Origin: Crambe crambe
Taxonomy: Eukaryota > Porifera > Demospongiae > Poecilosclerida > Crambeidae
DNA length: 64,000 bases
Direction: 5' to 3'
Assembly (NCBI GenBank): GCA_963924555.1
Contig: OZ004588.1
Span: forward strand, 6,235,205-6,299,204
The notes beneath the pieces were generated by a model. That model worked only from the letters and a program-made list of their open reading frames with translations, did not search any database and was not told where the DNA came from. The position numbers were made by a program, and so were the translations under genes. Shown piece by piece: positions 3,760 to 64,000 of this stretch (positions are counted from its first letter, which is position 1; every line of letters begins with the position of its first letter).

Positions 3760-6700
3760 GACTAAGAAAATTCCAAAAGCATAAACTTCTTGAAGATGGT
3801 AGAAGCAGTATAGTATTGGTCAGTGATAACGGTGGAAAGCTTGAAATCAACCCTGAAGCATGTGAAATGATTAAAAAAATCAAGAAACCTGTTGCTATTT
3901 TAAGCATTTGTGGAAAAGCAAGAACAGGAAAGTCATATTTCTTATCACGAGTACTGGAGACCAATGATGTGTTCGAAGCTAGTGATTCTGATGAAGTCTG
4001 CACTAGGGGCATACAAATGGCTACCACAACTTTAGCTTGTGAAGAATTTGAAGTAATATTACTCGACACTGAAGGTTCTGGTGCAGGAATGGTTAATGAA
4101 CAGAGACGCACGAATTTAGTCACTAAATACCTCGTTTTAACGACTTTGATAAGTTCGACTCTGATCTACAACACACAAGGTATCATCGATGCACAAAGTA
4201 TTCATGCACTCAGGTAAGTTGGACCAACATTGAATGGAGGTGTTATGCATGCCATCCACCCATCTGATTAGTAATCGATTTCTGTGAGCATAATCATCTG
4301 ATTTGGGTGAGCACATTTGGTGTTGGTGCTGGTACAGAGATCTATATCGTAGTCCTAATAATATTGCTTTTAGTAGACATGTAAGATCACTTGCACCTGC
4401 ATTAATTTTGTTCTCAGCTTAGTAAAACTTACAATTTTATTTTTTATAGTTGCTTCTCAAACTTATCAAGATTAATTCACTTGTGTAATGTGCCTATCAG
4501 CAAAAGTGAGTCTTGCAAGTACTTTTTTCCTGATTTTTTCTGGTTGATGCGTGATTGCAAAATAAAGCTCAGTGCTGGTCTTTCTCTTACTGACCACATT
4601 ATCAATAAATATCTCACTCCAAATGAGAGCGAACGTGAATCTGATGATGGACGATCACAACTTCTCACTCTCTTTCCTTCCTTTAAATGTCACATGGTAA
4701 ACCGTCCTGGTGGTGAAGAACCACATCTAACTCAAATTCCTAAGTTGGATGAAAGTTTTGATGCTGGAATAAAAGATGCCATTGAAATCTTGTGCAGCAA
4801 TATAAGCTGGAAAAAATGCATTGATCGTGATGATCCCCTTACAAGTGATCTTTACGTTAAGTTAGCTAAAGAATATATTGAAGCATTGAATACAGATAAT
4901 GGCATAACTGACTTAAGTGTTAGTTGGAAAGCAACATGTCATAATCGACTTGAGTCACTGTCTAAAGAGTTTGTTTGTGATTATAAGGAGAAAATGGAAG
5001 AAATAAAATTTCCAGTGGAAGAAAATGGTGTGAACACACAAGAAAAAAAAACCTTAAATGGAAAGCATTTCACTGTACTACATGATAAGTGGACAAAACT
5101 GAAAAAAGAGTGTGAATTTTTATTGCCAGGTAAAGAAACAACACATTCAAAAATTGAAAATGATATGAAGGAGAGAATTATGACTATATTTGAGTTGCTT
5201 AAACTAAGAAATCATGAAGCATCTAAAGATCATTGTTCACAAGTTTTTAACCGTCTTTATGATGCCCAGCATTTATTAAATCTTGAAGAGTTGAGGAAAC
5301 AATACATGGTTGAAGCTATAGGTCCTGCAAAAGATATTGTCTATGAAAAAGAAACCTCTCACATTCCAGGTCCACCAGTAGTTGAAAAATCAGAAATAGG
5401 TCAGAGAAAGGAAAAAACTGTTGTGCTAAAGTGGAACCAACCAAAAGTCAATCCTGATGCTGCCGAGAGTTATGAACTAGAAATAAAAGGGGCAAATGGA
5501 GACTCGTGGAAGAGGTTAAAGGACAATCTGCAGTCACCATTAAACATAACCAGTTCTGCATTCAAGGAAATGTTACCAAATCAAACTTACCAGATTCGTC
5601 TTCGAGGCTATAACAGAAGCATCAGAGGAATTGGGGAGTTTAGTAAGCCTTGTACAATCACTGTACCTTGTGGTGTACCAAGTAAGCCTTCAAGTCCTAC
5701 AATTCAAGTGTGCAAGGATGACCCTACAAAAGTGGAACTTTTTATCGCTAAACTACCAGAATTGAAGGAAAACGGAAAGCCAGTCAAAAAAATTATTATT
5801 CAAAAGTCAGATAACAAAAAAAAGAAATGGATCGACTGTAAAGAGAATGATTATAGCAGTCACAAACAATCAACTGCAATCGTCATGAAGTTAGATAACT
5901 ATGATCAGAAAATGACTCCACTTTATGAATATCGGGTCATCATGAAAAATGACATTGGTGACAGTGAACCTAGCTCACCAGTGGTCTTAGACCCTACTGA
6001 GATAATACCTGGACAAGTATTAAAGTTTAAGACTACTGAAGTTACCTGTGAGAGCATTTCACTTTCATGGGACGAGCCTGATGTAAATCCATCAGCTGTA
6101 CACATGTACCAAGTTGACTACAAAAAAAAAGGTGACAGAGACTACAAGAGTCTTAATAATATTCAAAAGTGTTCAGTGACAATACCTTCACTAAATCCTC
6201 GTACAAAATACACAATTGCAGTGATTGCTTTAAACTCTCGCAAATAACATGTACAAGCAATTTTATTATCTGATATCGAAACATTACTTGCTAAGCCAAT
6301 GAAACCACAACCACCTTCAATAGATGCTGGCCGTAAGTCAATTTCTGTTACTGTCAATTTGAACAAAAAAGAAGAACCAAGAAAAATTGTAATTTATCGA
6401 CATAAAAAAGATAAAAGCATTATATTGGATGAGCCTGAACACACTATTAGCATTCCACCTGAGCTATTAGCTGACACATCTGAAGTTAAACAAGTTGAAC
6501 ATGAAATGGATTATGAAGATCAAATTTACTTCATAAGTGTTCAATGTGAAAATGAAGTTGGTAGCACTTTAAGTGATTTAACACCTGTGAATCCTAGTCA
6601 TTGTACGATACCTGGCACACCATCTGATCTCAAACAAGAGACTGCAGAAGACGGAAACATCTTAAAGGTAGCATGGACTAAACCTAAAGAACGGGCAAGA

Positions 6701-7975
6701 CCAATTACTGTATATCGTGTAAAAATGAAGAAACATTCAGAAAGCAAATGGGGGCGTGAGCCAATTTCTACAACAGAAACGAGTGCTACATTCAAGCAAT
6801 TGAACTATAACACTGATTATGATATCCGAGTTTGTGCTTGTAATGGACACCTTGAAGGATCCAACAGTCCAACAATAACAATGAAAACAGGCTGTGGTGT
6901 TCCAGCGAAACCCTCACGCCCATTAGTAAGATTTGATGAAGTGTCAAATAATGTTATCTTCAAAACACAGCCAATTCCACCAGGAGATGAATATGGTTCT
7001 CCTATCACACACATCATAATTCAGCGCTTGAAAAAAAATGAGGAATGGGAAAGTATTTTGACTAAAACATACGAGCCTGATAACCTTGAATACAGGCTAC
7101 TGAATACATTAAATTTTGATTCTAATAGAGAATTATTTCGAATACAGCTACAGAATGATCAAGGGAAAAGTGAACCAAGTGATGTGTGTTCATTGAATTT
7201 CAATGACCTAGTACCAGGACAAGTAGAGGATTTGAACTGTGAAGATAAAACTAGCACTACCGTCAAACTTCATTGGAAAAAACCAATCAAATTCCGTGAA
7301 TTCGTGGTTGGTTATTGCATAAAAATGTCTGAACATCAAGGTGAGTTGAGGACTTTACAAACAGACTACAAAGACACTTCCATCACGATACCTGATCTTG
7401 CTATGAAAACTGATTACACTTTTGCAATATATGCTAAAGGCCAATTCGTTGATGGTGAACAAACAGAAATACCGGTTACAACAAATGAAGATTTCCCAGG
7501 ACCACTTAAGAAGCTTACTGCTTGTGCAAGATACTCTGATAGAATTAAAATTTGTTGGAGACCTCCAAAGGAATATTGCATGGCACTAGAGTTTTATGAA
7601 GTACAATGTAAGAACCAGTCAACAGGGAAAATTATAGAAAAGAAAATTAAAAAAAATGGCCATTCAACAGTTGTAAGGGGTCTGGACTCAAATACATCCT
7701 ATACTTTTCAAGTGACACCGAAAAATATATATGGCAACCACAAAGATTCTTCAATTGCAATTCTAAAGGATGTAAGCACTCGGTTCAGCACAGGTACAAG
7801 GATAGCACTTACTGTTTTGGCATCAGCTTTGACTCTTCCAGTATTAAATTTACCTACTGTGTCTAGAATGGCTCCAACATTAATTATGGGTGGAATAGGA
7901 ACTTATTTTGCTACAAATCAAAGTGAACATACAAATCAAAGTGAACATAGTAGTGATGAAGAATATACAGAATAG
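3760..7975 (+). CDS. GBP-like large GTPase with about eight fibronectin type III repeats (in-frame stop)
   Basis: Two exons are clear: 3760-4213 and 4450-7975, joined by a GT-AG intron (gtaagt donor). The first carries a guanylate-binding-protein G domain: P-loop GKARTGKS, the DTEG switch motif and, in the second exon, a base-recognition RD (FWLMRD). A GBP-like helical stretch follows, then repeated modules with WxxP and Y.I....N features (roughly 5370-7780) that read as eight FN3 domains. The C-terminus has two hydrophobic segments and an acidic tail, suggesting membrane association. GBPs are dynamin-like GTPases of cell-autonomous immunity; the FN3 fusion is not the vertebrate layout. The start is missing: the frame enters exon 3760 in phase 1 with no in-frame ATG upstream, so a 5' exon is unplaced. 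A TAA at 6245-6247 splits the frame within FN3 number 3, but the same frame continues open to 7975. It is either a recent pseudogene, a polymorphism or sequencing error, or a readthrough site. Confidence 0.85.
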
Positions 7976-9106: not shown

Positions 9107-9388
9107 ATACAGTCCTGCTGTTATTGAGTTTTGAACAAGTTCACGCATGCGCGGGCAAAACCATAGCGACGAAACTCATGAAAATCAGTCACATTCCAGA
9201 GCTCCACCACACAGCCCATGGCAACCAATCAGAACTTTCCACAACACTCCATATAAACCCATTCCCATACTGTTGCCATAGTACTAGACTGAGCAGTCGC
9301 AGCTGCAGCGCTATAGCACTGCGCAGGCAAAACAGCAGTATGCATTCCTGAGGTAACGCTGAAGTAGTGCGGTAAGAATCATAGATAC

Positions 9389-9661
9389 TACAGAGGTTTT
9401 ATTTAGGGAATCTTGCAAAATGCTGAGTGTGCATTCCCGCGCATGCTCAACTTTTGAGCCTCGAAAATCTCACTGGAGAAGGTGAATGGCATGCTAATAG
9501 GTTAGAACTTTACTAGAACAGTCACTAGCTAGCTCTTCAAAGCTTACTTCTCTAAAGTACTTTCCAAATCTGAGCACAATTTCAAAAATTCAAGCAGTGC
9601 GCATGCGTAGTGGTCCGAGGCCTGACGACCAATTTTTGCAAGATTCCCTAAAACCTCTGTA
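9389..9661. mobile_element. 273-bp MITE
   Basis: The left end reads tacagaggtttta...gggaatcttgcaaaa and the right end ttttgcaagattccctaaaacctctgta, an inverted repeat of about 28 bp broken by a 4-nt insertion (ttta) in the left arm. The inside has no open frame. The same 'aaaacctctgtataact' word recurs near 11932, at the other end of the repeat cluster, so the element family is dispersed or was split by later insertions. Confidence 0.7.
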
Positions 9662-10760
9662 TAACTAGGGTATGTTCGTGTAACATATTCAATTGGCGAG
9701 CGAAGCAGTTGGTGAAAGTCATTTGTACTTTGACTTACTAAGATATTGCAGCTGCATACATAGGAGGCTGTATAATGCTTACCACAAGCACTTAGAAAGC
9801 CAAGCGCCTACAATCCACTTAGCACCTCTATGACAAAATGCTGTAGAAAACAATAAGCTCAAGCTGTTTGTTCTAAGTGCTATGGGCATGTTTCATTTGT
9901 GGGGTCAAAGGTCAAACGAACGTGCGCATGCGTATTATTGGCGAGCGAAGCGAGCCTCTCTCTGGTCATGTCAACGGAAGCTCGAGATATATATTTATAT
10001 GTATACGTACGTCATAGCTAGCGGGCATAGTTAAAAATACGCATGCGCACGTTTGTTTGACCTTTGACCCCACAAATGAAACGTGCCCATAGCACTTAGA
10101 ACAAATAGCTAGAGCTTGTTGCTTTCTACAGCATTTTGTTATACAGGCGCTAAGTGGATTGTAGGCGCTAAGTGGATTGTAGGCGCATGGCTTTCTAAGT
10201 GCTTGTGGTAAACATTATACAGCCTCCTGTGTATGCAGCTGTGTATGCAGCTGCCACAACCACTGCAATATCTTAGCCCAATGAGTCAAATGCAAAGTAC
10301 AAATGACTTTCATCAACTGCTTCGCTCGCCGATTGAATATGTTACACGAACATACCCTAGTAGTTAGCTGAAGTATTTGGCGAGCGAAGCGAGCCTCTCT
10401 CTGGTCATGTAAACGGGAGCTCGAGATATATATATGTATACGTACGTCATGGCTAGCGGGCATAGTTAATAGTACGCATGCGCACGTTCGTTTGACCTTT
10501 GACCCCACAAATAAAACGTGCCCATAGCACTTAGAACAAGTGTAGCTAGAGCTTATTGCATGCTTTCTACAGCATTTTGTCACAGAGGCGCTAAGTGGAT
10601 TGTAGGCGCATGGCTTTCTAAGTGCTTATACAGCCTCCTGTGTATGGAGCTGCCACAACCACTGCAATATCTTAGGCTTAGTCAAAGTACAAATGACTTT
10701 CACCAACTGCTTCGCTCGCTCGCCGATTGAATATGTTACACGAACATACCCTAGTTAATT
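9662..10760. repeat. Nested large inverted and direct repeats
   Basis: The segment 9663-9933 (starting aactagggtatgttcgtg) is repeated in reverse complement at about 10034-10362, giving a roughly 300-bp imperfect foldback. A third copy in the same orientation as the second arm spans about 10379-10756. Shared words include cgcatgcg, tgacctttgacccc and gcgagcgaagc. No coding capacity is seen. It looks like a foldback element that later duplicated one arm. A related end, gctcgcttcgctcgcc, recurs near 11910. Confidence 0.75.
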
Positions 10761-10790
10761 ATGCCCGCTAGCTATTGACGTACGTATATA

Positions 10791-11510
10791 TATCAGAGAG
10801 TGCGTTAGCACTCTCTAAGTAGGGATGGCGGGTCAAAGGTCATAAGACAGTAATAAACTAAAAACTCTTCTTTCTCTTCTACCCTTATTCTACAGGTTCT
10901 CAGAAGTCTAGAGTGAATTATTACATCTACAAAGAAGAGAGGAGAATATTCCAAAACCAAAAATTCATTCGCTAACATAAGAAAAAAACGATGTCTAAAA
11001 TTGACTTTTGTTCTTTTTCTTTATCAGAGAGTGCGGTAGCACTCTCTATGTAGGGATGACTCGGACGGCCGCGCGCGCCGCCTATAGACTAATACTAAAG
11101 TGAAATTCTAGTTCTCCCACTTAGACCTAACAAAAGCTACTGTGAATGATTATCCAGCCTACTAGAGCCTACTACAATGTGCAGACCAAGTTTCAGGACC
11201 AGGGAGCTTACCGTTTCAGAAATACGGCAAGCAGGTAAATCGCTATATTCTTCTTCTTCTCTATTATTATTATCAGAGAGTGCGGTAGCACTCTGTATGT
11301 AGGGATGACTCGGACGGCCGCGCGCGCCGCCTATAGACTAATACTAAAGTGAAATTCTAGTTCTCCCACTTAGACCTAACAAAAGCTACTGTGAATGATT
11401 ATCCAGCCTACTAGAGCCTACTACAATGTGCAGACCAAGTTTCAGGACCAGGGAACTTACCGTTTCAGAAATACGGCAAGCAGGTAAATCGCTATATTCT
11501 TCTTCTTCTC
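10791..11510. repeat. Three tandem hairpin-headed repeat units
   Basis: Units start at 10791, 11022 and 11271, each with the 22-nt hairpin agagagtgc-ggta-gcactctct (gtta in the first). A fourth hairpin at 11511 closes the array. The units at 11022 and 11271 are near-identical copies of about 245 bp containing a GC-rich block (ggccgcgcgcgccgcc). The unit at 10791 has a different body that is repeated at 15442-15682. No coding potential is seen. Confidence 0.75.
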
Positions 11511-11850
11511 TATCAGAGAGTGCGGTAGCACTCTCTGATAGAGAAGAAGAATGAAGAATGAAAGATGAATGAAGAATGAATGAATGAATGAATGAAGAAA
11601 TGAATGAATGAATGAATGAATGAATGAATGAATGAATGAATGAAGAAATGAAGAATGAAGAATGAATGAAGAATGAAAGATATGAAAACAATCCCTACTT
11701 TTACAACTGCCATAGCTAGCTATAAGTAGTGGATGTAAATGTAGGGATTGTTTTCATACGAGGCTGCAGTACATTATATAGCCCAGCTAGATTTTAAGCT
11801 ATCCCTACTTAACCTTTTTATTTAGAAGAAATTTTTTGCATTCACTTGTA
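11511..11850. repeat. Hairpin, GAAT microsatellite and MITE end
   Basis: At 11510-11541 the family hairpin is fully palindromic (ctatcagagagtgc and its complement around ggta). It is followed by a (GAAT)n tract at about 11575-11680. From about 11735 to 11850 comes a segment ending in gaagaaattttttgcattc; its inverted copy lies at about 16031-16125, and the same end sequence closes the 16509-16873 hairpin element. Confidence 0.7.
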
Positions 11851-12023
11851 TATATATAAATATATATATAAATATATATCTCGAGCTCCCGTTGACATGA
11901 CCAGAGAGTGGCTCGCTTCGCTCGCCAATAAAACCTCTGTATAACTATGGTGGCCCTCAGTGTCATCCTGCGCGAGAATACCATTCCGAGAATCCGGGAT
12001 TGCTATCCCGTGAATCCGAGATA

Positions 12024-12105
12024 TTTTCCGAGAGTCCGGGAAGTTTTTCCGAGAGTCCGGGAGGTTTTTCCGAGAGTCCGGGAAATTTTTCCGAGAGTCC
12101 GGGTA
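12024..12105 (+). repeat. About 21-bp tandem minisatellite, four units
   Basis: Four head-to-tail copies of a unit built on ttttccgagagtccggga differ by one or two bases. They sit in the open frame that begins at ATG 11947, just upstream of the kinase's first solid exon, and would encode FPRVRE repeats. They may be translated or may be 5' UTR/repeat DNA. Confidence 0.7.
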
Positions 12106-12192
12106 GCCTCTGAGAGAATCCGATTCCGGGATCTAGCTAGCGCGCGCCTAGCTAGCGGATACACCCTTTACCAACTATCTGAGCTGCATGAT

Positions 12193-14264
12193 ATGAAGCG
12201 TCTTTCTACAACTGTATCTGAACCCAGCTCATCTAAGAATCCAAGATTCACTGAAAACCAGTTAGAAACTGAGAAATATGTTTCTATTCTACAGACCCTA
12301 AGGAAAGAAGAATTAATTTCTAAATTTTCAGAGGTAATTCCCACCTTGAAAGATATCATCAGTGGAAAGGTAGGTAGTTAGGTAGCTAAATACAAGTAGG
12401 TGGGTGATTGCATGAAGATCCCCCTCCCCCAGGTCCCCTCTTCTCTCCATGATGAATATATGACTGGATCCTGTGGAATGCGTAGTATGTCATCAGCTAT
12501 TAAATTTTAATGATAGTTAATTTTAATATTATTTAACAGATAAACTTCAGGGCAGGAGTAACACCATCTGTTGCCTTAAATTGGAGCAATATGAAGCAAT
12601 TATTGATTTGCTAGTAAAAAAATTTTGTGGTCCAAATTTCATGAAGGTTAGGGTAACTTGATAATAATGCTGTTTGTTTATATTATTAGTATCTTGAAAT
12701 ACAGTTATTCAGTTACACACTGAATGTTCTATATCCAGAAGGGCTTCAGCTTTTGATTATGAATATGTTTAACCTAAATAGGAACGAGGTATGTTTAATG
12801 GATGGCAAGTTTTACATAATATAATGGATTGGTTTGCAGGCTATGAAAGTGATGTATTGCTTTGTACCAAGAACATTACAGTTTGAAGCGAGTAACTCTG
12901 TTTGTGTGCACAATAATAACATTATTCATTATAGAGTTGCAGAAGTAGAAGAGTCAGCAAATCCCTTCCCTCTAGCTGGATTAGTGTTTCCCTTAGGAGA
13001 ACTTCTTGATGCTACAGACCAGAAAGATGAAAAGAACCTGTTGGGCCGTGGTGGGTATGGATCTGTTTACAGAGGTGTATTGAGGCACACCACAGTTGCC
13101 GTGAAATTTCTGAATGAGGTCCGTCAGAGCATAGCTGCAGAATATCTCTGTGAGTTTGAATTTGCAGGAGGGTCAGACGTCACTTGGAAGCCGAAGTATG
13201 GGAGCTGAAATGCTGAAAACTGAGCTGGCTGCATTGACGAAGTATGTGTTGTGAGTATGTCTAGTACTTGTTGCTTTAGCTGTATGTATTGTGTACTAGG
13301 TTTCGGCATCCCAACATAATACCCATTATGGGTTATTCAGTGTCACAAGACGTCATTGTATATGAATATGCTCCAGGCAGAAGCCTCTATTATCGGCTCC
13401 ATGAGGTACCTTATGGTTTTGTTTGTTGAGAGTCCACCACTCCCTATTGCACTACTCAGGTTACAGGTAATGTTCAATTGAAATGGAAAAACCGACTTCA
13501 GATTCTGAAGGGGACATGCTGTGGACTTCTGTATCTACATTCTGCAGACCATCCCATAGTGCACCAGGATATTAAGTCGTAAGTTTATTATTATAATCAT
13601 CCACAATAAGGGCTGCTTTGATAACAATTATATAGACAGAACATTCTGTTGGATGCTGTTGGCTGTCCTAAAATCACAGATTTTGGATTTGCTCTCGAGT
13701 TACCTGAAATTCTTGGTGATAGGAGGTCCATGTATACGGCAAAGGCCTTTGCAAGATCGGAGGGTTACTACCCAGGAGAACTTACTAGTGGGAAATATTC
13801 TGCAAAGAGTGATGTTTATAGCCTTGGTGTGGTACGTTTTGCTACAATGTATGTAACTCAATGATCCTTTTAGAGTTGATCTTGAAAGGTAATGCTCGAG
13901 ACCTTTACTGGACAGAAAGCATTCTCTGTGGACAGAAGTGATCCCAAGTTGGTATGTCACATGTGATTATGTCAATGATCGTCTACTTTAATATTTAAAA
14001 AAACCTGTAGGTCGACTGTCTAGAAGACGAACTCAAATCATTTGCAGCATTCAAGGAGTGCCAGGACCATAGAATAGAAGGATGCAGGGAAGATTGGGCA
14101 AACTTTCTCTTTGATCTAATTAACCGATCATTGAGTAGACACTCTAAGAGGCCCACTTCACTTGAAGTAAGTGACATCAAAATATTTGTGCACATTCAGA
14201 AAGATAATGTTATCTACAGGTAATGCAAGCTTGGGAAGCCACAGCCATGCAGGATGTGGACTAG
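12193..14264 (+). CDS. IRAK-like (TKL) serine/threonine kinase
   Basis: Eleven exons: 12193-12369, 12551-12646, 12750-12788, 12840-13118, 13168-13241, 13300-13405, 13460-13578, 13636-13831, 13889-13951, 14011-14166, 14220-14264, for 449 codons plus stop. The first three exons encode a region I cannot assign to a death domain. The kinase domain follows FPLGELLDATD: glycine loop GRGGYGSVY (about 173-181), VAVK lysine 193, HQDIK catalytic loop (D294), QNILLD, DFG (D312), and GYYPGE in place of APE. The length and the leading F.L.EL..AT motif match the IRAK/Pelle group, which relays Toll/IL-1 receptor-MyD88 signals in the cytosol. The catalytic loop has Gln instead of Arg (non-RD). An upstream in-frame ATG at 11947 would add 82 residues including the minisatellite; I prefer 12193 because the extra part is repeat-derived. 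Exon 12750-12788 is the least certain. Confidence 0.85.
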
Positions 14265-14354
14265 CTAGCTGCAATCAGATCAGTTTCATTTCCAACTCGG
14301 TTACATATTCATTGCTACTATGGTGTGCATCAAAAAGTGATGACATGTACAAAA

Positions 14355-15441
14355 TTAGTCAGCACAGTAATAACCTACAAGATGATCATATATATCTGAA
14401 ATGTTGGATACAGTAAATTCATCCTTAGTGATTCCATGTGCTCGGTGAAGAAAGTTAGCAGAGAGATACTCAAAATCTTCATCAAAAAATGGTGGTGGAT
14501 AGGATGCACGAGTCATAAAATGTTCCCATATGTCAACATCTAATGGACACAACTGGTCAGATGTACCTAATTGAATAACATTGAACTATTAAAGTAACTT
14601 GAAATTCCAAAGCTTACCAAACTCAGATGGCATCAAGTACAGATCATTTGGGATCCCATGAGGAGTTCCTGACTCATTTTGTGAGTATTCCACAAAGTTT
14701 GAAAGTCCAGCAGTTCTTTTTCCAAAATTGGAACCAATACATATGCCAGGCATTTTCTAAATAAAGCTTGAGATACAGTACACAACTAGTGACCATAATC
14801 CCACTTACCTGTGCATTATATTACTAGTATCAAATCTTCCAGTGGCTGATAAATCCTATAATTCTTGTAGCTGAAACACTTCTAAAAGAGAATGTAGCTG
14901 GTATACTCACTTTGCAAAAATTTATCCACCACTCAGTTTTTAAACGGCGAAAATAAGACCACCATGCTTCAATTTTCTACAGTGAGCTATTATTATGCAT
15001 CTATTTACTATAAAAACAGTACAAACATACCACATTGTGAACTGATGCCCCCGCTATTAAACTGTGGCTACCAGCCATAGCATCACCATGATTTAAGCAG
15101 AAAGCAATTTGTGCAGAGCCTGCATGTACATTCTCTGTCCCCTTGTCTACTCTCAGAATTTTGGGACAGCCTGTATAAGAATAAAACCAATGATTACCAC
15201 ATTAAATTTTTGTTAGATATTATCTGTACCAGCACACTTTTCAACAGCTTCCAAGTAGTAGACCAAGACCACATCAGGGCGGTGGTTACTGGGAGCCAGC
15301 TTAAGCCACAGTATTTTGCGTGAAAAGCTGAACAAGTGATAGAAATCATTGCTGAACCTTACAATACAATACTTACCCGTCGATACAGCCATGGATTGTG
15401 AATCCAAAATGATTAAGTTTCTCATATGCATCAAAGTGCCA
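14355..15441 (-). pseudogene. Integrase-core (rve-type) gene, truncated and frameshifted
   Basis: Minus-strand exons: about 15377-15441, 15230-15327, 15031-15170, 14911-14976, 14809-14855, 14618-14756, 14355-14566. Joined, they read WHFDAYEKL, then [15 protein letters not shown], then ILRVDKGTENVHAG, then KIEAWWSYFRRLKTEWW and LAYVLVPILEKELLDFQ. This is the integrase-catalytic-core family seen in many uncharacterised cnidarian, sponge and fish proteins; the Asp in HFD, the Asp in RVDKGTEN and the Glu in KIEAWW are candidate DDE residues. Two lesions are visible. The 5' end stops exactly where a hairpin-headed repeat begins (15442), so the N-terminal part is missing. In exon 14618-14756 the frame must shift after WNTHK to reach TPHGIPNDLYLMPSEFG. 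I call it a decaying pseudogene. It lies tail to tail with the kinase, 90 bp apart. Confidence 0.7.
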
Positions 15442-15715
15442 TATCAGAGAGTGCGGTAGCACTCTCTAAGTAGGGATGGCAGGTCAAAGTCCATAGGACA
15501 GTATAAACTAAAAACTCTTCTTTCTCTTCTACCCTTACTCTACAGGTTCTCAGAAGGCTACAGTGAATTATTATATCTACAAAGATCTAGAAGAGAGGAG
15601 AATGTTCAAAAGCCAAAAATTCATTCGCCAACATAAGAAAAAAACGAGTTCTAAAATTGACTTTTCGTTCTTTTTCTTTATAATCAGAGAGTGCGGTAGC
15701 ACTCTCTATGTAGGG
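15442..15715. repeat. Hairpin-headed repeat unit interrupting the integrase gene
   Basis: It begins with the family hairpin tatcagagagtgcggtagc and carries the same body as the unit at 10791-11021 (gtcaaag..cata.gacagta.taaactaaaaactc). It ends at a further hairpin starting 15683. It abuts the truncated 5' exon of the integrase gene. Confidence 0.75.
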
Positions 15716-15832
15716 TAGTCTGGTGAACCATCCCCGGCCACTTCCGCAACACTGGATGTATTGCATCACCAGCACGCGGTGATGCAATACATCCAGTGCT
15801 GCGGAAGTGGCCGGGGATGGTTCACCAGACTA
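15716..15832. repeat. 117-bp near-perfect palindrome
   Basis: The arms at 15716-15770 and 15778-15832 are 55 nt each and pair with a single mismatch around a 7-nt loop (agcacgc). The stem is GC-rich and starts tagtctggtgaaccatcc. It follows directly after the last agagagtgc hairpin. A transcript would fold into one long dsRNA stem, but it could equally be a foldback transposon. No coding potential. Confidence 0.9.
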
Positions 15833-16508
15833 CATGCCGTGTACATGTCATTTATATTGCTGTTGCTGTAAAGTTTTATATCAACAAAACTTAAATAGCT
15901 AAACAAATTCTTCAACCAGAGACACTGTATGTACCTACAAAAGAGGTTTATGTAGAGCTGGCTTTGTATAGTACTGTACTGTAGCCTCCCTCATTCAACT
16001 TCAAGCACTAAGAAAAAGGATAGAAAAAAGTGAGCATAAAAAATTTCTTCAAATAAAAAGGTTAAGTAGGGATAGCCTAAAATCTAGCTGGGCTATCTAT
16101 AATGTGCTGCAGCCTCGTATGAAAAAAATCTTCGCGATATTACCGCATAAAAGGGGTGGGGCAATTAATAGCAGTTCTCCTCATATAACACCTGCACAGG
16201 ATGTGGCCATTTGATGGCATCCACTATTATGATCACTACACCAAATGCATAAACTCCCCATACTCCTCCCTCAAGCAAGACATACGTACCATCTCAATAA
16301 TTATTTCAGTGATCACATAGCTATGTAACAATTAGCTAATGCTGTTCACTTTTTAAAATGTTCACTCCTTTCAGTACTCCATTACACTGCAGATGATCAT
16401 CCTTCAAACTCTCCTCCCTGAACAGAATGAAATACTGATCATTAGTTCAATCAAGGAAGCCTTTAGTGTCTATCAATTTTCATAATCACAAAGAAAAAGA
16501 ATGCAAAT
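15833..16508. other. Non-coding, MITE-derived sequence
   Basis: I see no gene. The section at about 16031-16125 is an inverted copy of 11735-11850 (shared words aagtagggata and gctgcagcctcgtatga). Confidence 0.55.
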
Positions 16509-16873
16509 AAGTGAATGCAAAAAATTTCTTCGAAATAAAAATGTGAAGTAGGGATGCTATTATAACTGCAGCTTCATTATGAAAATCAAGTACTGCAGCA
16601 TCGAAGCAGTATGGCCCAAAAATCTAGCTGGAATATGTATTATAACTGCATGCAAGAGAGTGAATTTAGTGAAGTGACCCTTACCCATCATCAAGTACAA
16701 GATACTATTCCTACTTCACTCCCATGGCCCATGCAGTTATAATACATATTCCAGCTAGATTTTTGGGCCATACTGCTTCGATGCTGCAGTACTTGATTTT
16801 CATAATGAAACTGCAGTTATAATAGCATCCCTACTTCACATTTTTATTTCGAAGAAATTTTTTGCATTCACTT
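16509..16873. mobile_element. 365-bp foldback element with 144-bp arms
   Basis: The left arm 16509-16652 (aagtgaatgcaaaaaatttc...) and the right arm 16730-16873 are equal in length and complementary with one visible mismatch (cagcttcatt versus cagtttcatt). A 77-nt spacer separates them. The end sequence recurs at about 11820-11848 and about 16030, so this belongs to a local family of foldback MITEs. It lies about 190 bp upstream of the RAG1-like start codon. Confidence 0.9.
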
Positions 16874-17064
16874 GTCTATGTAAGAATGGACATCCTGTCT
16901 AAACCACAATTATGTAGTTATGATAATCATAGTATCTTGAAGAGGAAGTTCAGCTCTTTCCGGTGATCTTGTAAAGATAAGGTGCCTACTTTTTTGGAGG
17001 TCAGTATTGGCTGACATAAAATTAATAAAAAATTATAAAAAACAAACATGTATAATTTAGGTTG

Positions 17065-20000
17065 ATGGCCTGGTTGCAGGATAGGTGTAGAGTGTGTGGG
17101 GGGAAACTCTCAAGGTACAAAGTGTCTTATGACTGCCACACCACTACCAACAAGGCAAAGCTGGCACAGATAGGGGTGATCACAGCAGATGATCGAATAG
17201 AGGTCCACCCACAGAGATTTTGCTACGGGTGTAATAATATCTGCAAAAGAACAGAGAAAGCCATTAAAGAGGGGAGGGACTATACACCTCGGCTAACGAA
17301 ATTCAAGTGGGAAGAGAGTGGTAGTGAGGCAGTTTTGAGCAGAGTGGGTCAAAAGCCCAAAAAAGCACCCATTGGGAGGCCATCGCACCTCATTGTTGAG
17401 CTAGTGGCATACATGAAAGAGGAGGCACCTCAAAGTGTACCACTAGCGTTTGCCCTCAGAGAGAGGCTGTCTCGCCACCCCTCCATGGATGGAGATCTCA
17501 AGTGTCTGGTGTGCCATCTGATGCTCGACAGGCCCTTACAGCTGACCATCTGCAAAACATTAATTTGTATGTTATGTTGTGTGAGGCACACATATAGATA
17601 CACTGACCTTCGGTGTCCATGTGGTGGAACGCACACCATTGATAGAACCTCTGTAGTTTCTGCACCAACAGTTGTTCAGAGGATGCTGAGAGACATTGCT
17701 TTTCCTTGCGAGAGATGCCAGCAAGCTGTTCCTGCAGGTATGTGCAAATAAAAACAACATAACACAACATCTTGTCACAAATATTTTACGTACTAGTGGG
17801 ATTTGAAGAGCATATTTGTGCTGCCCCACCTCCACACTCCCTGGAAGAGATCATGGCTACACCCCTAAATACCCCACTATCGAGGCAAGAAGACAAGCTA
17901 GCCACAACCCTTGTCAAAAGGAAGCTAGCGCAAGGAGACGGCATAATTCAATTTAGAACTGGAGGACAGGTATTAGTTCAAAAACCCACAATAACAAAAA
18001 CCGTCACTATGATTGTATTTAGCCTATCACCTTGGTAAAGGCCAGGAGCTGTCGAGTGCTGTCTTCTCAAGCCACACCAAAAACGGTACTTGCCCGCACA
18101 AAAGAGCTGAATCAGCACCGGGAGGTTCTCAGTGGGGGGGGGGGGGGGGGGGGGGGGGGGGAACAGGGTTTCCAGCTGGCCAAGGAAGTCAAGGCTTGCT
18201 CCCTAGAGGAGAGAGAGCAGATTCTCATGGAGCTCCAGAGTGGGATCAAGGTGGTCATACCCACTAGCCACGCCCTTGCCATGAAGGCAGATCTTGGCAT
18301 TCCATGGTCGAAGCTGAGAGCCATCAGGAGGTCTCTAAAAACATAAAAATTATTGTAGTGTAATGTAGACTCAATTAATACACAGGTGGTTCAAGGAGTG
18401 CCATGTATCCATGGCCAGTGAGAAACTGATGAGGAAGAGGGCTGGGGAAGTGATTGGGGATGGGGTGGTGGTTGAGAAAGTGGCTCTTACCTTCCCATTG
18501 AAAGATGGTAATGGTGGGGAAGAGGTGAAGATGAGGCCATTTGGGTATATCCCGGATCTGTGGGAGAAGGTGGAACAACTGCTGGAACAGAACGAGAGGT
18601 ACAGTAGCCATGAGTAATTCAATACACACTTCAAATTTGGATGTTATAACAGGCATGGACGCTTGAGTTGGCATGGGGGGAGGCTCCCAGAGGATGAAAT
18701 CTGGATAAAGATTGGGGAGGACAAAGGGGGTGGCACATTCAAGATGGCTGTCCAGATCGTGAATGTTTTATACCCCAATGCACCCAACAATACTTGTATC
18801 TTCTGCATATTTGAAGGGCCAGACAGTGTGACCAATCTAACAGTCATGGCACACAGGTTCCAGGAACAGGTTGATACCCTTGAGACCAAACAGTGGAAGT
18901 AAGCATGCAGCTAGTAAACAAAATTGGATTAGCTTAATCTCACAATTATAGGGGCAAGAAGATCAGAGTGGTCTACTGTGGAGACTACGAGCTCCTCTGT
19001 AGGTCATATGGCATCTCTGGAGCTAGTGGTAAACACCTGCTCCCTCCTAACAATTGATAAGACTTACACATCCATTCTCACAGGAAAACACTGCTGTTTG
19101 TGGTGCAATGTTGCTTCCGATAAGCTGAAGCTGGCACCATCAATGAGGGGACCAGTACAGCTAAGGTCTGACGCCACATTAGCTTGTGACTTGGCAGCAT
19201 TTAAGGCAGATGGTTCCAACATTAAGCGAGCCAAATTCTTCCATAATGTCATCAGGGAGCCTCTGTTCGCCATCAGTGTAGACAAGGCATGTTAAAAAGT
19301 ATCAGGAGTAACATTACTTACACATAATATAATTTGGTAGATTTGCCCACCAGGTCTACATATTACCTTGGGCATCTTCTTCAGGCTGTTCACCCTCCTA
19401 GAAGATGCTTGCCATGAACTTGATGTGCGTGGGCTCCTCCGAAATGTGGATGGTGGTGCTGCCTATGAAGCCTACGTCCAGTCCTATAGGAGGGAAGTGC
19501 AGCTGGCTGACAAGTGTAGGCAGGTTGAGTCAGCAATATCCATTCTGGACCAATTAGTCACCATCTTCACCCTCGCTACTACAAATGCTGCTACCCCTTC
19601 TCAATTGGCACAGTTGGGACAGCTTCAGAGTGCCATAACTGACAAGAGGAAAGAGTTGAATGATATGGTATGCAATTCAACATTAGTGTACCTATAATAA
19701 CAGTATTCACATCCAATAGAAAATAGAAAGGCAACAGCTTCAGAGTTCCCTGGCCAAAACTTTCAAGAAAGACGAGGGGCCATTTGTTCGAGCACTGGAT
19801 AAGGCCCTTCAGTCATTTCGTGTCCAGAGGCAGGCCTATTATAGTGGCACTTTTGTTGGCAACCATGTGCATGTCAGCTTGAAGGTATCTCATCTCTATT
19901 ATAATGCACAACTGAATCTTACAATATTCATAGGCCAAAAATATCGATACAATGTGTGCTTCAATGCTAAATCTAGCACAGGCCCACTGCCCTACTCTAG

Positions 20001-20519
20001 TTGCCGAGGCAACCACTCTCGTCATCAAATTCAAGGAGGCATTTAGGCTCTTTGCCCTGTGCCACAAGCTGTATGACAGTAATTATGTCACTGATGAGCA
20101 GATCACAGAATTGGGTAGGTCTAGTAGTGTATCTAAAGTGGTGCCTAGTCATGCATTACTCCTAACCAGGTGGTCACATAAAAGATTTCATGGCTTTCTA
20201 TCGGAAAGAGTTCCCACATGCCACAGTACTCCCAAAGATGCACATGCTTGAAGAGCATGTGCTTCCTTGGTTGAGGAAATTTCATGTGGGATTTGGGCTT
20301 CTTGGAGAGCAGGGCATAGAGAGCATACATGCCCATTTTAACCGGCTCAAGCGTACCTACACAAGTGTTCCTGAGGAGGTGGATAGACTTCGAACCCTCA
20401 TGACTGAACATCTGCTTCATATAGCACCAGAGCATGTGGCAGCCACTCCAGACATCAAGAGGACTTCAAGTTTGTTGCATCCAGATGGCAAAGAACTCGC
20501 TAAGGCAATTATCCCATAG
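17065..20519 (+). CDS. RAG1-like protein (N-terminal zinc region plus DDE-type core)
   Basis: Eleven exons: 17065-17737, 17797-17969, 18041-18330, 18386-18598, 18653-18898, 18952-19028, 19084-19286, 19341-19667, 19720-19884, 19934-20114, 20170-20519, giving 965 codons plus stop, close to vertebrate RAG1 (about 1,040). The N-terminus has CRVCG (C8, C11) and HPQRFCYGC (C53, C56), a RING-like block C147-C186 and C215/C218 with VGFEEH, in the order of RAG1's non-core region. The RING lacks its usual His (Thr165). The core matches RAG1 landmarks: D473 (GEDKGGG), D543 (CGDYELL), SGASGKHCCLWC (C562/C565), HMLEEH-type H874/H879, and E900 (GIES), mirroring RAG1 D600, D708, C727/C730, H937/H942, E962. 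RAG1 is the transposon-derived V(D)J recombinase; related mobile proteins are known in invertebrates. No RAG2-like gene and no CACAGTG-type terminal repeats are visible. The intron after 19286 uses a GC donor. A 28-G run lies in exon 3. Annotation as RAG1-related is by eye. Confidence 0.75.
18134..18161 (+). repeat. 28-nt poly-G run inside a coding exon
   Basis: An uninterrupted G homopolymer sits in exon 3 of the RAG1-like gene and reads as nine glycines; the frame before and after (REVLS / EQGFQLAKEV) is kept. Long G runs are unstable in replication and unreliable in sequencing, so the length is provisional. Confidence 0.9.
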
Positions 20520-22774
20520 CTAGACACGTGGTGGTTTGCATGAATCATAGACTATAGAGGTTCCAGAACATATATAGTCTATGCATGAATACTCAAGACC
20601 TCAGGAAATGAATCTGTGGTTGCTAGGTCGTCGCTATGGGTTAATACGTCACGCTTGTACTTTTCATGTTCAAAACTTAATTTCCATGTACCCGGAAGGC
20701 TTAACATCTGTGAGTTAACATTGTCACTATTCGATTTAATTATACGGAATTTGAAATAATTCTTAACGTAGTGGGCGGGACTTCTCTATTTAAATGAAAA
20801 TTGTGTGTCATCGATACTTTTGCGTATATCTCTGGATTGAAGCCACCAATTCACAAATTTGAAATACACAAATAAGAAATGGTGCACACTACAATATATT
20901 TGAATCTGATAGACAGAGAATGATTATTACCTAATTTTAGCAGCCTGGGTAGATCATTAAAATAGTTCTTTAAAGCCTCTTCACTCATGCTTATACTTAT
21001 GCCAGCATCAGCATAGATTGCTCCAAAACACAACACTTTGCTCAGCAGTAGTTAAAATTGTTGCCCTGCCCACTTTTTCACGATCATTAATTTTCTTAGG
21101 TCAATCCGCGAAAAAGTAAGCTGGTAAGAGCGATTTTGTGCACCGAACTACTCGTAGATAGAGGTAAAGAATATGTATGTTCGAGTTTTCATCTATTCAC
21201 AATTTTGATCATGCAATTATGACATTATTTTTGTAAGAAATGTACATAGTGCAAGCATAAAGCATAAAATATAGTGCTGATATTCAAATTCTACGCTATT
21301 TTTTACCCCTGGGAGCAACTTCTTCTCTAACAGCTTATCAAGAACTTGCGGATCTCCATTCTTGCACTGTTTACATAGAAAACTCTGTACACGTATCCGC
21401 CCACGCACAACTTCCGGTTTGACATCGCTAATATTGGTTCCTGCCTGCTGATCTATTGCCACAATATTTCCTGCACACACTGCCCCCTTAAAGTACCAGA
21501 ACAGTTCCTGTGAATAGGCTTGAGCCAATTGTGCTTAAAATATTGAGCTCTTTTTTTATTCCCTATTTTTATATTCCCTTGGATACTTCTATTATTCATC
21601 AGAAGAAAGTTATTATTCTAATATAATGCTGTTATTGTAGCATTGACATAGCTATTCATGAAATGAAAGAAAATACTCTAGTGGTTCACTTGGTTGGTTA
21701 TAGCTACTTGGTGTTTTTTTCCCTTTTTTCTCCAACCTAGCTAAAAGTCATGATAAATGCCAACATGTTTTGACAGCCATGCTTCTGTCATCTTCAGGGC
21801 TGAACAAAAATCCAAAAAATCAAAAATCTCAAAAAAGAATACTCATTCAGAAGCCCCTGATGAAGGTTTAACCAGCAAAATACTCATTATTCTCTTTAGG
21901 GGTAAATTATGCTGGCGCAATTGGCTCAAGCCTACCTGTGAACACACACCACTGCTCCAAAGTTCCGGAACAGTTCCTGCACACACAAATGCTAGAACAA
22001 TTCCTGCACACACGAAATGCCAGAACAGTTCCTGCACACACTGCCACTCAAAGTATCAAACATGTGATTGTGAGGAACCTCCCTATAGTCAGCTTTAGCT
22101 ACTGTAGGAAATAAAGAATTAGCTTTCACAAAATAAAAAATATATAAAAAAGTCTAGCAATGTTTCATATTATAAAATGCTTGGCATTGAAACGATATAA
22201 AATTATCACAGAAAATCCTAGCTCTTAGTTAACAGGATCTAATTACCAAATGAGTACAAACCACTCTACGAAAGATGCTTCAAGTTAATGAGACCTCACT
22301 AGTAACCCTCACAGAGATCTCCCTAGTCAATTTGATAGGTTTATTTCATCTTATTCATTGCATGTACCCTGGGACAAGTAGAGACAATAGGCCTATTTCA
22401 ATGCATCTCGATGACTGTGTTGACCCAAAGTGGCATTAAACAACAACAACAATAACAACAACAACAATGGGAATATTGAATATTGGTGGTCTTAGTGTTG
22501 AGATGATCCTACTTATAAAGTTTCATTACATGCACTGCACAATCATGGAATTTGTGTTAGCTACATTCTGTGAAGAATTCTATTTCGTATTTTCATAAAC
22601 AACTAACTGAATATTGTCTTGAAAGATTTTGTGCTTGGATCTGATATGTGAGGTCATGGACTGGTCCTGGTGTACTATTTGGTACAATATTGATTCCACC
22701 TAAGGGACAAAAATCAAAATTTTGAGAATATCCTACTACAGATCCACTTTGAATGCACACGAATACAGTGAAGT
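20520..22774. other. Intergenic, no gene supported
   Basis: I see no complete gene. A minus-strand open frame at 21217-21528 has plausible protein character (CKQCKNGDPQVLDKLLEKK) but no supported neighbours. The region 21470-21540 is partly repeated in reverse at 21916-22060 (gcaattggctcaagcct and gaacagttcctgcacacac words), the latter also in tandem. An (AAC)n tract lies at 22440-22468. Confidence 0.5.
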
Positions 22775-37000: not shown

Positions 37001-40000
37001 TTCGAATGAGAACTGCAAGGGACTTAATTCAACCACAGAAAGAGTGAGAGGCTACGATGTACCAACTGTCGAATGCTCTAATAGATTTACAGATATCACA
37101 CTCTCTGTGTGTGGCGACAACCTTATGAGAGCAGATATTTTACAGTTTCGCTGGATGGGGTCCATCTTCTTAAGAAATGGATCGCCTCGGTTTTGGGGTG
37201 TAGACGCTATCCACTTGAACTTGAGAGAGGCTGATAAAAATACTACATTACTAAGTGATGGTTTTAATGGCAATAGCAATATCTTGACGCATGATGGCAA
37301 ATGCAATCCGAGTCATTGCAACTTAAAGTAAGTTATATGAACACACAGAAAATAGCAGTGGAACCCTCCCCCTCCCCCTCCCTCTGAAAATTATGAGGAC
37401 ACACCTCTCTTATCAGGACACATCTCTAATCAGGACACACCTCTCCAATCAGGACATACCTCTCTAATCAGGACACAACCCTCTAATTAGGACACACCTC
37501 TCTAATCAGGACACACCTCTCTAATCAGGACATACCTCTCTAATCAGGATACAACACTCTAATCAGGACACACCTCTCTAATCAGGACATAGTCCTCTAA
37601 TCAAGGCATGCCTCTAATCAGGACACACCTCTCTAATCAGGACACACCTCTCTAATCAGGACACACCTCTCTAATCAGGACATACCTCTCTAATCAGGAC
37701 CACTTCACAATATCATTTGTTTGTTTGTTTATTTCATTTGTAGTTCTACTTTATGGATGGAACCTAGAGGAGGAAGAAATGATTCCATATGTTTTCTATT
37801 TCTTTCTACTTACATATGGAGATACTTTGTATTTGGTGATCGTAGTGGTCGAGTCTATCCACCCAACACTGTATTCACTGGAATTCTTCCAACACAACTC
37901 ATTCCTCTTCATATAACATTCAACGACAGTGGAATTCAAGCCACTGACTCTCCCCCTACAAGTCAACCTTGTCCTTCATCCCGCTCAACTGGCCCTACTA
38001 CCACCACCCTATCAAATACAACAGCAACCTCTACCACCCCAACAACAGCTACCACTCCAACAACAGCTATCACTCCAACAACAGCTACCACTCCAACAAC
38101 AGCTACCACTCCTACCACAGCTATCATCCCAACAACAGCTACCACTCCTACCACAGCTATCATCCCAACAACAGCTATCACCCCAACAACAGCTATCATC
38201 CCGACAACACCTATCATCCCAACAACAGCTATCATCCCAACAACAGCTATCATCCCAACAACAGCTATCACCCCAACAACAGCTACCATTCCAACAGCTA
38301 CCACTCCAACAACAGCTACCACTCCAACAACAGCTACCACTCCTACCACAGCTATCATCCCAACAACAGCTACCACTCCTACCACAGCTATCATCCCGAC
38401 AACAGCTACCACTCCTATCACAGCTATCATCCCAACAACAGCTACCACTCCTACCACAGCTATCATCCCAACAACAGCTATCACCCCAACAACAGCTATC
38501 ATCCCAACAACAGCTACCACTCCTACCACAGCTATCATCCCAACAACAGCTATCACCCCAACAACAGCTATCATCCCGACAACACCTATCATCCCAACAA
38601 CAGCTATCATCCCAACAACAGCTATCACCCCAACAACAGCTACCACTCCTATCACAGCTATCATCCCAACAACAGCTACCACTCCAACAATAGCTACCAC
38701 TCCAACAACAGCTACCACTCCTACCACAGCTACCACCCTTACCACTCCTACCACTCCAACAACAGCTACCACTCCCACCACAGCTATCACCCCAACAGCA
38801 GAACAAAATGGAATAAGAAATGCAATCTCTAGAATACAGCAAACAGTACGTGTGTGCTACATATAAAGATAATGACTTCATCTGTCCATTGTAGACCACC
38901 CACAATAGGGCTGAAACCATGTCAGCTTCCTCTCAATTATCAGTCCAGAGCACTTTAGATTTATTGGCCCATAAATGCTTATGTACTCTTGTACATACTT
39001 TCTTTGTGATTACCTTGAGCATGCACACTCACCTCACAATGCTTGCATATTCAGATAACACGTGACAGCGAATTGCAGAGTATATTTGCTGAAGGAGTGA
39101 GTCAATTTCTGATCAATCTCTTTATCGCTGCTTGAATTTCTTCTTGCATATTAAAGGATCCACAGAATGCTATCAGTTCCCTCTCCATGTACACGCGTAG
39201 GGAACTTCTTAATGGATCAAGAACTGCTGCTAGTGTTTACATGCTTGGAGTTATCTTGAATCAACTCAATTCCACTGGTGAAAGACTGAATCAAACATTT
39301 ATTCAGGTATGCTACTAGCTAAACTTCAGCTAGTGAGAGAGCTAGCTATGAGGTTTTTTTGTTTCCAGAACTTTGTCGGAGTTACAGAACAAATCACAAG
39401 AAGGGGAATGGATGAGGTTGTCTTGGATGTTTCTTGTGCAAGATTGCAATCATAATATCCCTCTCTCTCCCTCTCGGTCTCTCTACTTCCTCTCCCCCAT
39501 TTCCCTCACAATACCCCCTCTTCCTCTTCCCTATTACCCATCCATCTCCCTCTATACCTATCCCTCTCCATCTCTCATTCCTGGCCACTTTGCCCACTCC
39601 ATCTCCCTCTCTCCATCTCTCTTTTCTCTACTCCCTCTCCCAACTTCTAACCCCCTTCCCTCTCCCTCCCTCCATCTCCCTCGCTGTGTATAGGTAGATA
39701 GTGGCATTATTGGGAGCACACTCCTAAGGATAGTGGACCAGTTTGCTTTGAATGTGTTACCAAACAATATCAAATTAACTAATAGAGCCATAGGTACATG
39801 CGTAAGTTGCTTGGCTACAGTCATAATTCTAGTGTGACTGAGTTGGGGTTGATTCTGAATGGCAGGGTAATTCCAGACAGTTCAACTATTTTTGAAACTT
39901 CTCTCAAAGCTGGAGGATGTGATACATCTTTCGAAATAGAGCTCATATTATTATGATGATAGAATACAAAACTCTGCAGTGGAATATAGAGCTCATAAGT

Positions 40001-52475: not shown

Positions 52476-64000
<11,525 letters not shown>

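Follow-up and report, generated by a model that had tools for sequence, protein, structure and literature searches.

Gene structure and copies of the element

We examined a 64,000-nucleotide (nt) stretch of the Crambe crambe genome (GCA_963924555.1, contig OZ004588.1, positions 6,235,205 to 6,299,204, corresponding to C11:6235205-6299204 in our contig numbering; hereafter the window), which contains a transposase gene related to RAG1, the enzyme that generates the diversity of antibodies and T-cell receptors. A first-pass annotation had described this locus as an intact RAG1-like gene. Judged by profiles, motifs and published descriptions of Chapaev, it is almost certainly one copy of a cut-and-paste DNA transposon of the Chapaev superfamily, with a RAG1-type N-terminal half (N half) on a Chapaev DDE catalytic core. 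The gene is a relative of RAG1 that helps to explain where RAG1 came from, and not a RAG1 gene.

One of the 12 splice combinations tested was open through to the stop at 20519, yielding 11 exons, 971 amino acids (aa) and ten introns of 49–59 base pairs (bp), nine of them GT-AG and one GC-AG (Table 1). The earlier annotation had correctly joined 11 exons in one frame but counted 965 residues, so that all seven residues it named lie six positions further on. The motifs it had listed were present in the spliced protein, in the order given—in the N half, C8xxC11-G, H48-P-x-x-F-C53-x-x-C56, the RING cysteines from 147 to 186 and C215-x-x-C218...H230, followed by the named residues of the core. The gene is not a chance product, because the protein matches the Pfam family PF06918 with an E-value of 5.3e-13 and exons related to those of this gene recur at many sites across the genome.

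Table 1. Features of the transposon copy (family F1) and of the insertion that splits it, in window coordinates
Feature	Position	Strand	Remarks
Transposase gene	17065..20519	+	exons 17065-17737, 17797-17969, 18023-18330, 18386-18598, 18653-18898, 18952-19028, 19084-19286, 19341-19667, 19720-19884, 19934-20114, 20170-20519; 971 aa
Chapa / RAG1-N zinc motifs, aa 5-60 (CRVCG ... HPQRFCYGC)	17077..17244	+	weak PF12560 match; family profile aligns to mouse RAG1 138-226
RING-like finger, aa 147-186	17503..17622	+	RAG1 is top PDB match of family profile
C2H2 finger 3' of RING, aa 215-230, split by intron 1	17707..17813	+	C215, C218 and H230 invariant in N-half alignment A1
D479, predicted first catalytic Asp	18720..18722	+	invariant in 6 members of core alignment A2
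D549, predicted second catalytic Asp, aligns with RAG1 D708	18983..18985	+	invariant in A2; register rank 1/351
C568-x-x-C571 zinc pair, C(2)C motif	19095..19106	+	invariant in A2
H880-x4-H885 zinc pair, H(4)H motif	20241..20258	+	cross-family row comparison
E906, predicted catalytic Glu, aligns with RAG1 E962	20319..20321	+	cross-family row comparison; register rank 1/368
5' terminal piece of F1, lacking the terminal CAC and another short stretch of the terminal repeat	9114..9371	+	95% identical to 5' end of copy A over 9123-9372; one of 5 places in genome
Left copy of 8-bp duplication GTAAGAAT	9372..9379	.	single in copies A-D, double here; second copy 16880-16887, at insertion edges
7.5-kb insertion splitting window copy	9380..16879	.	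not in copies A-D, which read straight through
Main body of F1, ending ...GTG	16880..20712	+	91-99% identity of main pieces to four other copies
Junction where window copy lacks ~207-289 bp held by A-D	20463..20464	.	C-terminus changed after residue 953
3' target-site duplication AGTT	20713..20716	.	flank reading; 5' partner degraded to AGT at 9111-9113

Searches of the assembly (143 Mb, 119 contigs) recovered five copies of this family, which we call F1: the window copy and four long copies, of which A, B and D lie on contig C3 and C on contig C8. Main pieces of these four are 91–99% identical to the window copy; in A, B and D the 3' tail aligns at about 82% and is gapped. Five places in the genome, the window included, carry the 5' end. 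Comparison of the copies placed the ends at CACTGCTGTTATT... on the 5' side and, in reverse complement, CACAGATGTTAAG... on the 3' side, giving the element CAC...GTG termini, and each of copies A–D is flanked by a perfect 4-bp duplication (AGGT, ATCC, AATC and ACTT). Searching for terminal repeats within the window alone was unhelpful: it gave 10 matches against 3–8 across five shuffles, no match having a duplication of 4 bp or longer, and a search with wider limits, run without a control, gave 8. The real 5' end is 7.5 kb distant and was located by the comparison of copies. Copy C carries a segment of about 154 bp inverted in place (G000:C8 near 4986084-4986250, equivalent to 18613-18766 of the window).

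Many diverged relatives were also present in this genome (107 matches in a tblastn-type search); those that we read were grouped by blastn likeness into families F2–F8 beside F1, with F5 and F8 read in part only. F2 has CAC...GTG ends (CACGGGTGTTTTG) and duplications of ACCC and GAGG in two copies. F3 also has CAC...GTG ends, with an 18-bp repeat (CACAGCCGTTTCATTCCA) and duplications of CTAG and ACCT in two copies, the third having lost its 3' end; the length of the CTAG duplication is ambiguous because it lies inside a CTAGCTAG repeat. In total, 4-bp duplications were found for eight copies in three families (F1–F3), including this ambiguous one.

The catalytic core is of Chapaev type

Across the whole protein, PF06918 (DUF1280) was the sole Pfam match above the cut-off (residues 429-533). 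The same family was matched in all six families scanned, and a profile search of the genome found it at 23 places, all above the cut-off. These places are strongly clustered, 12 of the 23 being carried by contig C3, which accounts for 9.7 of 143 Mb. PF12940 (RAG1) went unmatched in Pfam scans of the whole protein at E up to 1 and of its pieces at E up to 10, scans from which HMMER's filters remove most weak matches. Queried with the single sequence, the PDB gave a best E of 0.068, with a RAG1 RING stretch at E 0.58, and viral contigs searched with the core gave eight pattern matches and no relative.

DUF1280 has been identified with Chapaev transposases and grouped with RAG1 as a small clade among the RNase H-like folds (PMC3985635), and DUF1280 domains have been counted in cnidarian genomes including Nematostella and Hydra (PMC7642931). 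The hallmarks listed for Chapaev in one account—CAC/GTG ends, a duplication of 3–4 bp, and C(2)C, LH and H(4)H motifs (PMC4079192)—can be compared directly with what we found, namely a DUF1280 core, CAC...GTG termini, 4-bp duplications and the same three motifs together with D, D and E. A Chapa zinc finger and RING, the latter known from two Chapaev subgroups, are also present here according to a profile match to the N half of RAG1, in which the Chapa part is drawn from four of seven rows.

These residues recur in the other families. D479, D549, C568/C571, H880/H885 and E906 are kept wherever a row of the cross-family comparison covers them in frame; the reading frame of row F5 is off at D479, D549 is misread in row F3_C1 but present in its sister F3_C3, F8 is without the stretch from D549 to the histidine pair, and F7 and F5 end before E906. 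In a query-anchored comparison, most covering rows keep GGDKG, SGDYE, GASG-x-H-x-CLWC or CLFC, PGLH, H-x4-H and GEQGAES, with slight departures in F1 (GEDKG, CGDYE and GEQGIES) and F8 (GEHGAES). In several families the breaks between tblastn pieces lie near the same residues (about 283, 386, 456, 539, 564, 632, 796 and 857), and this coincidence suggests that intron positions are shared between families.

The single gene encodes a transposase with Chapa zinc fingers, a RING and a C2H2 finger on a Chapaev DDE core. By analogy with the families involved, transposase molecules would bind the CAC-ended terminal repeats. A metal site formed by D479, D549 and E906 would then cut at CAC and the element would insert, duplicating 4 bp of target; the C2/H2 zinc site is presumably structural, and the RING may serve, as in RAG1, as a dimerisation and ubiquitin-ligase module.

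Relationship of the two halves to RAG1

We built an N-half profile, A1, from seven families, the Chapa part coming from four of the seven rows. Against the PDB its best match was mouse RAG1 (E 1.9e-18), over two stretches (residues 138-226 and 238-383), followed by other RAG1 chains and then by LNX (4.1e-10) and TRAF6 (3.7e-9). The weaker single-domain signals agree in kind: PF12560 (RAG1_imp_bd) reached E 7.8e-4 for a 77-aa piece of F1, under the cut-off, and turned up at E up to 1 in four of seven members, most strongly at 2.6e-5, and zf-C3HC4 was seen in two of seven at E up to 1. By sequence comparison, both the Chapa fingers and RING-C2H2 are truly RAG1-like, homologous to the non-core half of RAG1 and in the same order, and on this point the first-pass annotation, which had equated the N half with the RAG1 non-core half, held up. 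The Chapa domain was already identified in Chapaev elements of lancelet and sea anemone, and from Chapaev elements it was suggested in 2015 that the two halves had fused in an ancient common ancestor (PMC4411706); Chapaev N halves of RAG1 type, some with a RING, are published and are not new here.

The core behaved differently. A profile from six families, A2, retrieved neither RAG1 nor Transib from the PDB at E up to 10, although the library includes 17 RAG1, RAG1L (RAG1-like) and Transib sequences, and hhalign of A2 against mouse RAG1 620-1007 returned a probability of 0.1%. The mouse piece begins at residue 620, and the register tests cover D549, E906 and H880: forced onto RAG1, D549 on D708 ranked 1 of 351, E906 on E962 ranked 1 of 368 and H880 on H937 ranked 2 of 365, and the 19 residues between D549 and C568 equal the spacing of D708 and C727. 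In ungapped block alignments to RAG1, however, the scores of D2-CxxC, D1 and H4H-E were reached by 10, 29 and 343 of 400 shuffles, and in gapped ones by 0, 2 and 54 of 60. The whole-block alignment to RAG1 is weak and partly negative, and only the forced-register ranks favour equivalence.

For the claim that the core residues mirror RAG1, these results cut both ways: the relative places of D549, E906 and the C2/H2 residues are borne out by the registers, and remote kinship or a shared fold would be a plausible account of the motif resemblance, but the core itself is matched by PF06918 and not by PF12940. The first-pass annotation had named two outcomes that would count against it, the first being a profile placement of the core in another DDE superfamily; that is where the core falls, with DUF1280 and Chapaev and without a RAG1 or Transib match. 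Its further suggestion, that both halves were already joined outside Bilateria, stands insofar as a RAG1-type N half sits on a DDE core, but such a fusion had been proposed in 2015 from Chapaev (PMC4411706). Searches of this genome with PF12940 gave no match, but neither did any of 14 control genomes, and a search with the mouse RAG1 core piece, made without a positive control, gave none either; neither is proof that a true RAG1L is absent.

The contrast between the halves was also apparent when each family was left out of the profile in turn. For RING-C2H2, with seven families, mouse RAG1 scored 49.8–55.4 bits vs 55.4–84.2 for the left-out families, including one tie (F1 55.4 bits, RAG1 55.3). 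For the core, where six families could be used, those left out scored 503–761 bits vs about -2 for mouse RAG1 in five of six profiles, the sixth giving no score. Identity among families was 40–58% in the core (residues 456-800, six families) vs 19–49% in RING-C2H2 (seven families).

Condition of the window copy

The window copy is stranded—its frame is open, but its usable 5' end is gone and a later insertion has split it—and for these reasons it could act in trans at best. In this respect the description of the locus as intact applies to the reading frame and not to the element, which has a damaged 5' end, a 7.5-kb insertion and a lost 3' stretch, and which gives no indication of purifying selection.

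Private coding substitutions, with the count confined to positions where three or more of copies A–D align, numbered (non-synonymous/synonymous) 3/0 in the window copy, 11/6 in A, 1/3 in B, 12/3 in C and 3/2 in D. Pooled over the five copies, 30 were non-synonymous vs 14 synonymous, or 68%, compared with 72–77% expected without constraint. One of the three in the window copy adjoins D479. We read this as a young, unconstrained transposon copy and probably not a kept gene, with a test that is low-powered for a single copy. Exon 3 of the window copy is 21 nt longer than in each of copies A–D, a multiple of three, and the extra nucleotides are most likely located in a run of 28 G (18134-18161) that codes glycines and keeps the frame.

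As for the insertion itself (9380-16879), its 8-bp target duplication is of hAT-like length, and it contains protein kinase pieces (Pkinase E 3.5e-9, 13625-13864) and long hairpins; it is possibly a large element with a captured host gene. Two of the hairpins are nearly perfect, one at 16509-16873 with 144-nt arms (99%) 77 nt apart and one at 15715-15833 with 56-nt arms (98%) 7 nt apart.

Alternative explanations and related elements

Several observations weigh against our assignment of the locus to an ordinary Chapaev copy. The window copy is the sole F1 copy of five without frame-breaking exon changes, which domestication would also predict. Among F2 copies, those on C12, C1 and C20 have no matching duplication, their 5' ends being altered or their ends lying 9–15 kb apart, perhaps in different copies, and the remaining F2 copies gave one usable end each. 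Domestication would mean that a former Chapaev transposase was taken on as a host gene after its ends were lost, and is compatible with a Chapaev origin; the open frame, the disabled 5' end and the in-frame lengthening of exon 3 are all as it would have them. The family is very young, however, the C-terminus has been altered by deletion, and the private coding substitutions, so few as to carry little power, are all non-synonymous, one of them beside D479. We consider domestication of the window copy unlikely, with only a very small chance of being correct.

If the locus were instead a true RAG1-like transposon or gene of the RAG1L, ProtoRAG or Transib type—a deep-branching RAG1 with both halves homologous—the homology of the N half and the RAG1 register of the D2-CxxC, H4H and E residues would follow naturally. 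Yet the core already contradicts this, in the PDB search, in hhalign and in the leave-one-out scores alike, and the duplications are of 4 bp, not the 5 bp given for Transib and ProtoRAG (PMC8355894, PMC8289069); we give this explanation next to no credence. An element like the N-RAG-TP of Aplysia, comprising the RAG1 N half only, would share the same kind of N half, being described as entirely RAG1 N-terminal-like sequence (PMC8355894), and would be compatible with our assignment if N-RAG-TP is itself a Chapaev. With Aplysia compared by description, this is nonetheless improbable for the locus here: a full DDE core lies in the same spliced frame of F1, and parts of the core are found in six further families.

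The elements can also be compared feature by feature. Chapaev with Chapa and RING (Kapitonov and Jurka; PMC4411706) is alike in its Chapa domain, RING, DUF1280-type DDE core, C(2)C/LH/H(4)H motifs, CAC...GTG ends and 4-bp duplications, whereas the elements here differ in a host taken to be a sponge, in ten short introns seemingly shared in position, and in the bipartite 20/30-nt asymmetric end of F1. Chapaev3 shares the Chapaev core motifs and Chapa domain (PMC4411706) but has 3-bp TWA duplications (PMC4079192) vs 4 bp here. RAG1 and RAG1L (TransibSU, ProtoRAG) are alike in N-half zinc motifs, in RING-C2H2 order and in the relative places of the second Asp, the Glu and the zinc residues, but the core here is not detectably similar by sequence and duplications are 4 bp rather than 5 bp. 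N-RAG-TP of Aplysia likewise has a RAG1-type N half in a mobile element, and differs in being described as an N half only. Titles and abstracts of the searched literature contained no sponge Chapaev elements, with Repbase entries and subscription papers lying outside that search.

Asymmetric ends and the origin of RAG1

The ends of F1 share a 16-bp block, AATTAAGTTTTGAACA, set 20 nt in from CAC on the 5' side and 30 nt in from it on the 3' side; none of 2000 shuffles reached a block of 16 bp. Published spacers are 12/23 for recombination signal sequences (RSS) and 27/31 for ProtoRAG (PMC8289069). The F1 asymmetry counts as one case because copies A–D are near-identical and recent. Beyond the terminal repeat, the ends of F2 shared no word longer than 5 nt (reached by 1810 of 2000 shuffles) and those of F3 none longer than 6 nt (520 of 2000), F3 also having a 10-nt word in opposite orientation, found without a control. 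RSS-like asymmetry as a general feature of Chapaev is therefore rejected for now, since F2 and F3 are without such a pair. If functional, the asymmetric ends of F1 would mean that a 12/23-like geometry also exists outside the RAG lineage.

Two accounts of the origin of the non-core half of RAG1 have been published: one old fused ancestor with later losses (PMC4411706) and the fusion of two transposons (PMC8355894). A fused pair inherited jointly should hold similarity in the core longer than in the N half, and we find the opposite—the core is better conserved among families, yet only the N half is recognisable as RAG1—which favours exchange of the N half over a fused ancestor with losses. This leave-one-out discordance, which is new here, points to domain exchange, as measured on a short cysteine-rich domain with a single RAG1 sequence and no outgroup, with part of the score generic to RING (LNX 42.8 bits) and a burst of change in one core lineage being possible. 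In a RING-C2H2 tree, RAG1 groups with F2, F4 and F8; the tree has no outgroup, long branches and no fully supported branch, and we claim no nesting from it.

Taken further, these results lead to a tentative proposal that we hold with more doubt than confidence: that the non-core half and the core of RAG1 are of different ancestry, the N half having been exchanged between Chapaev-type and Transib-type transposons after their cores had diverged and not inherited from one old fused ancestor, and that some Chapaev elements independently have RSS-like ends, in which a shared 16-bp block is spaced from CAC by 20 nt on one side and 30 nt on the other, a difference of one helical turn like that of the 12/23 pair in V(D)J recombination. 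This genome offers at least seven divergent Chapaev families for comparison, and the discordance between N half and core is directly testable by wider sampling.

Other features of the window

Elsewhere in the window, two adjoining long open reading frames at 4406-7972 encode a guanylate-binding-protein domain (E 8e-7) and several fibronectin type III domains, and are perhaps one gene with an uncommon combination of domains. On the reverse strand, an open reading frame of 864 aa (57896-60487) has a sub-threshold match to the WSD motif (E 3.9e-5), and we presume that it might encode a chromatin-remodelling protein of the BAZ kind. The interval 38001-40000 has a GC skew of -0.445, very strong relative to the rest of the window.

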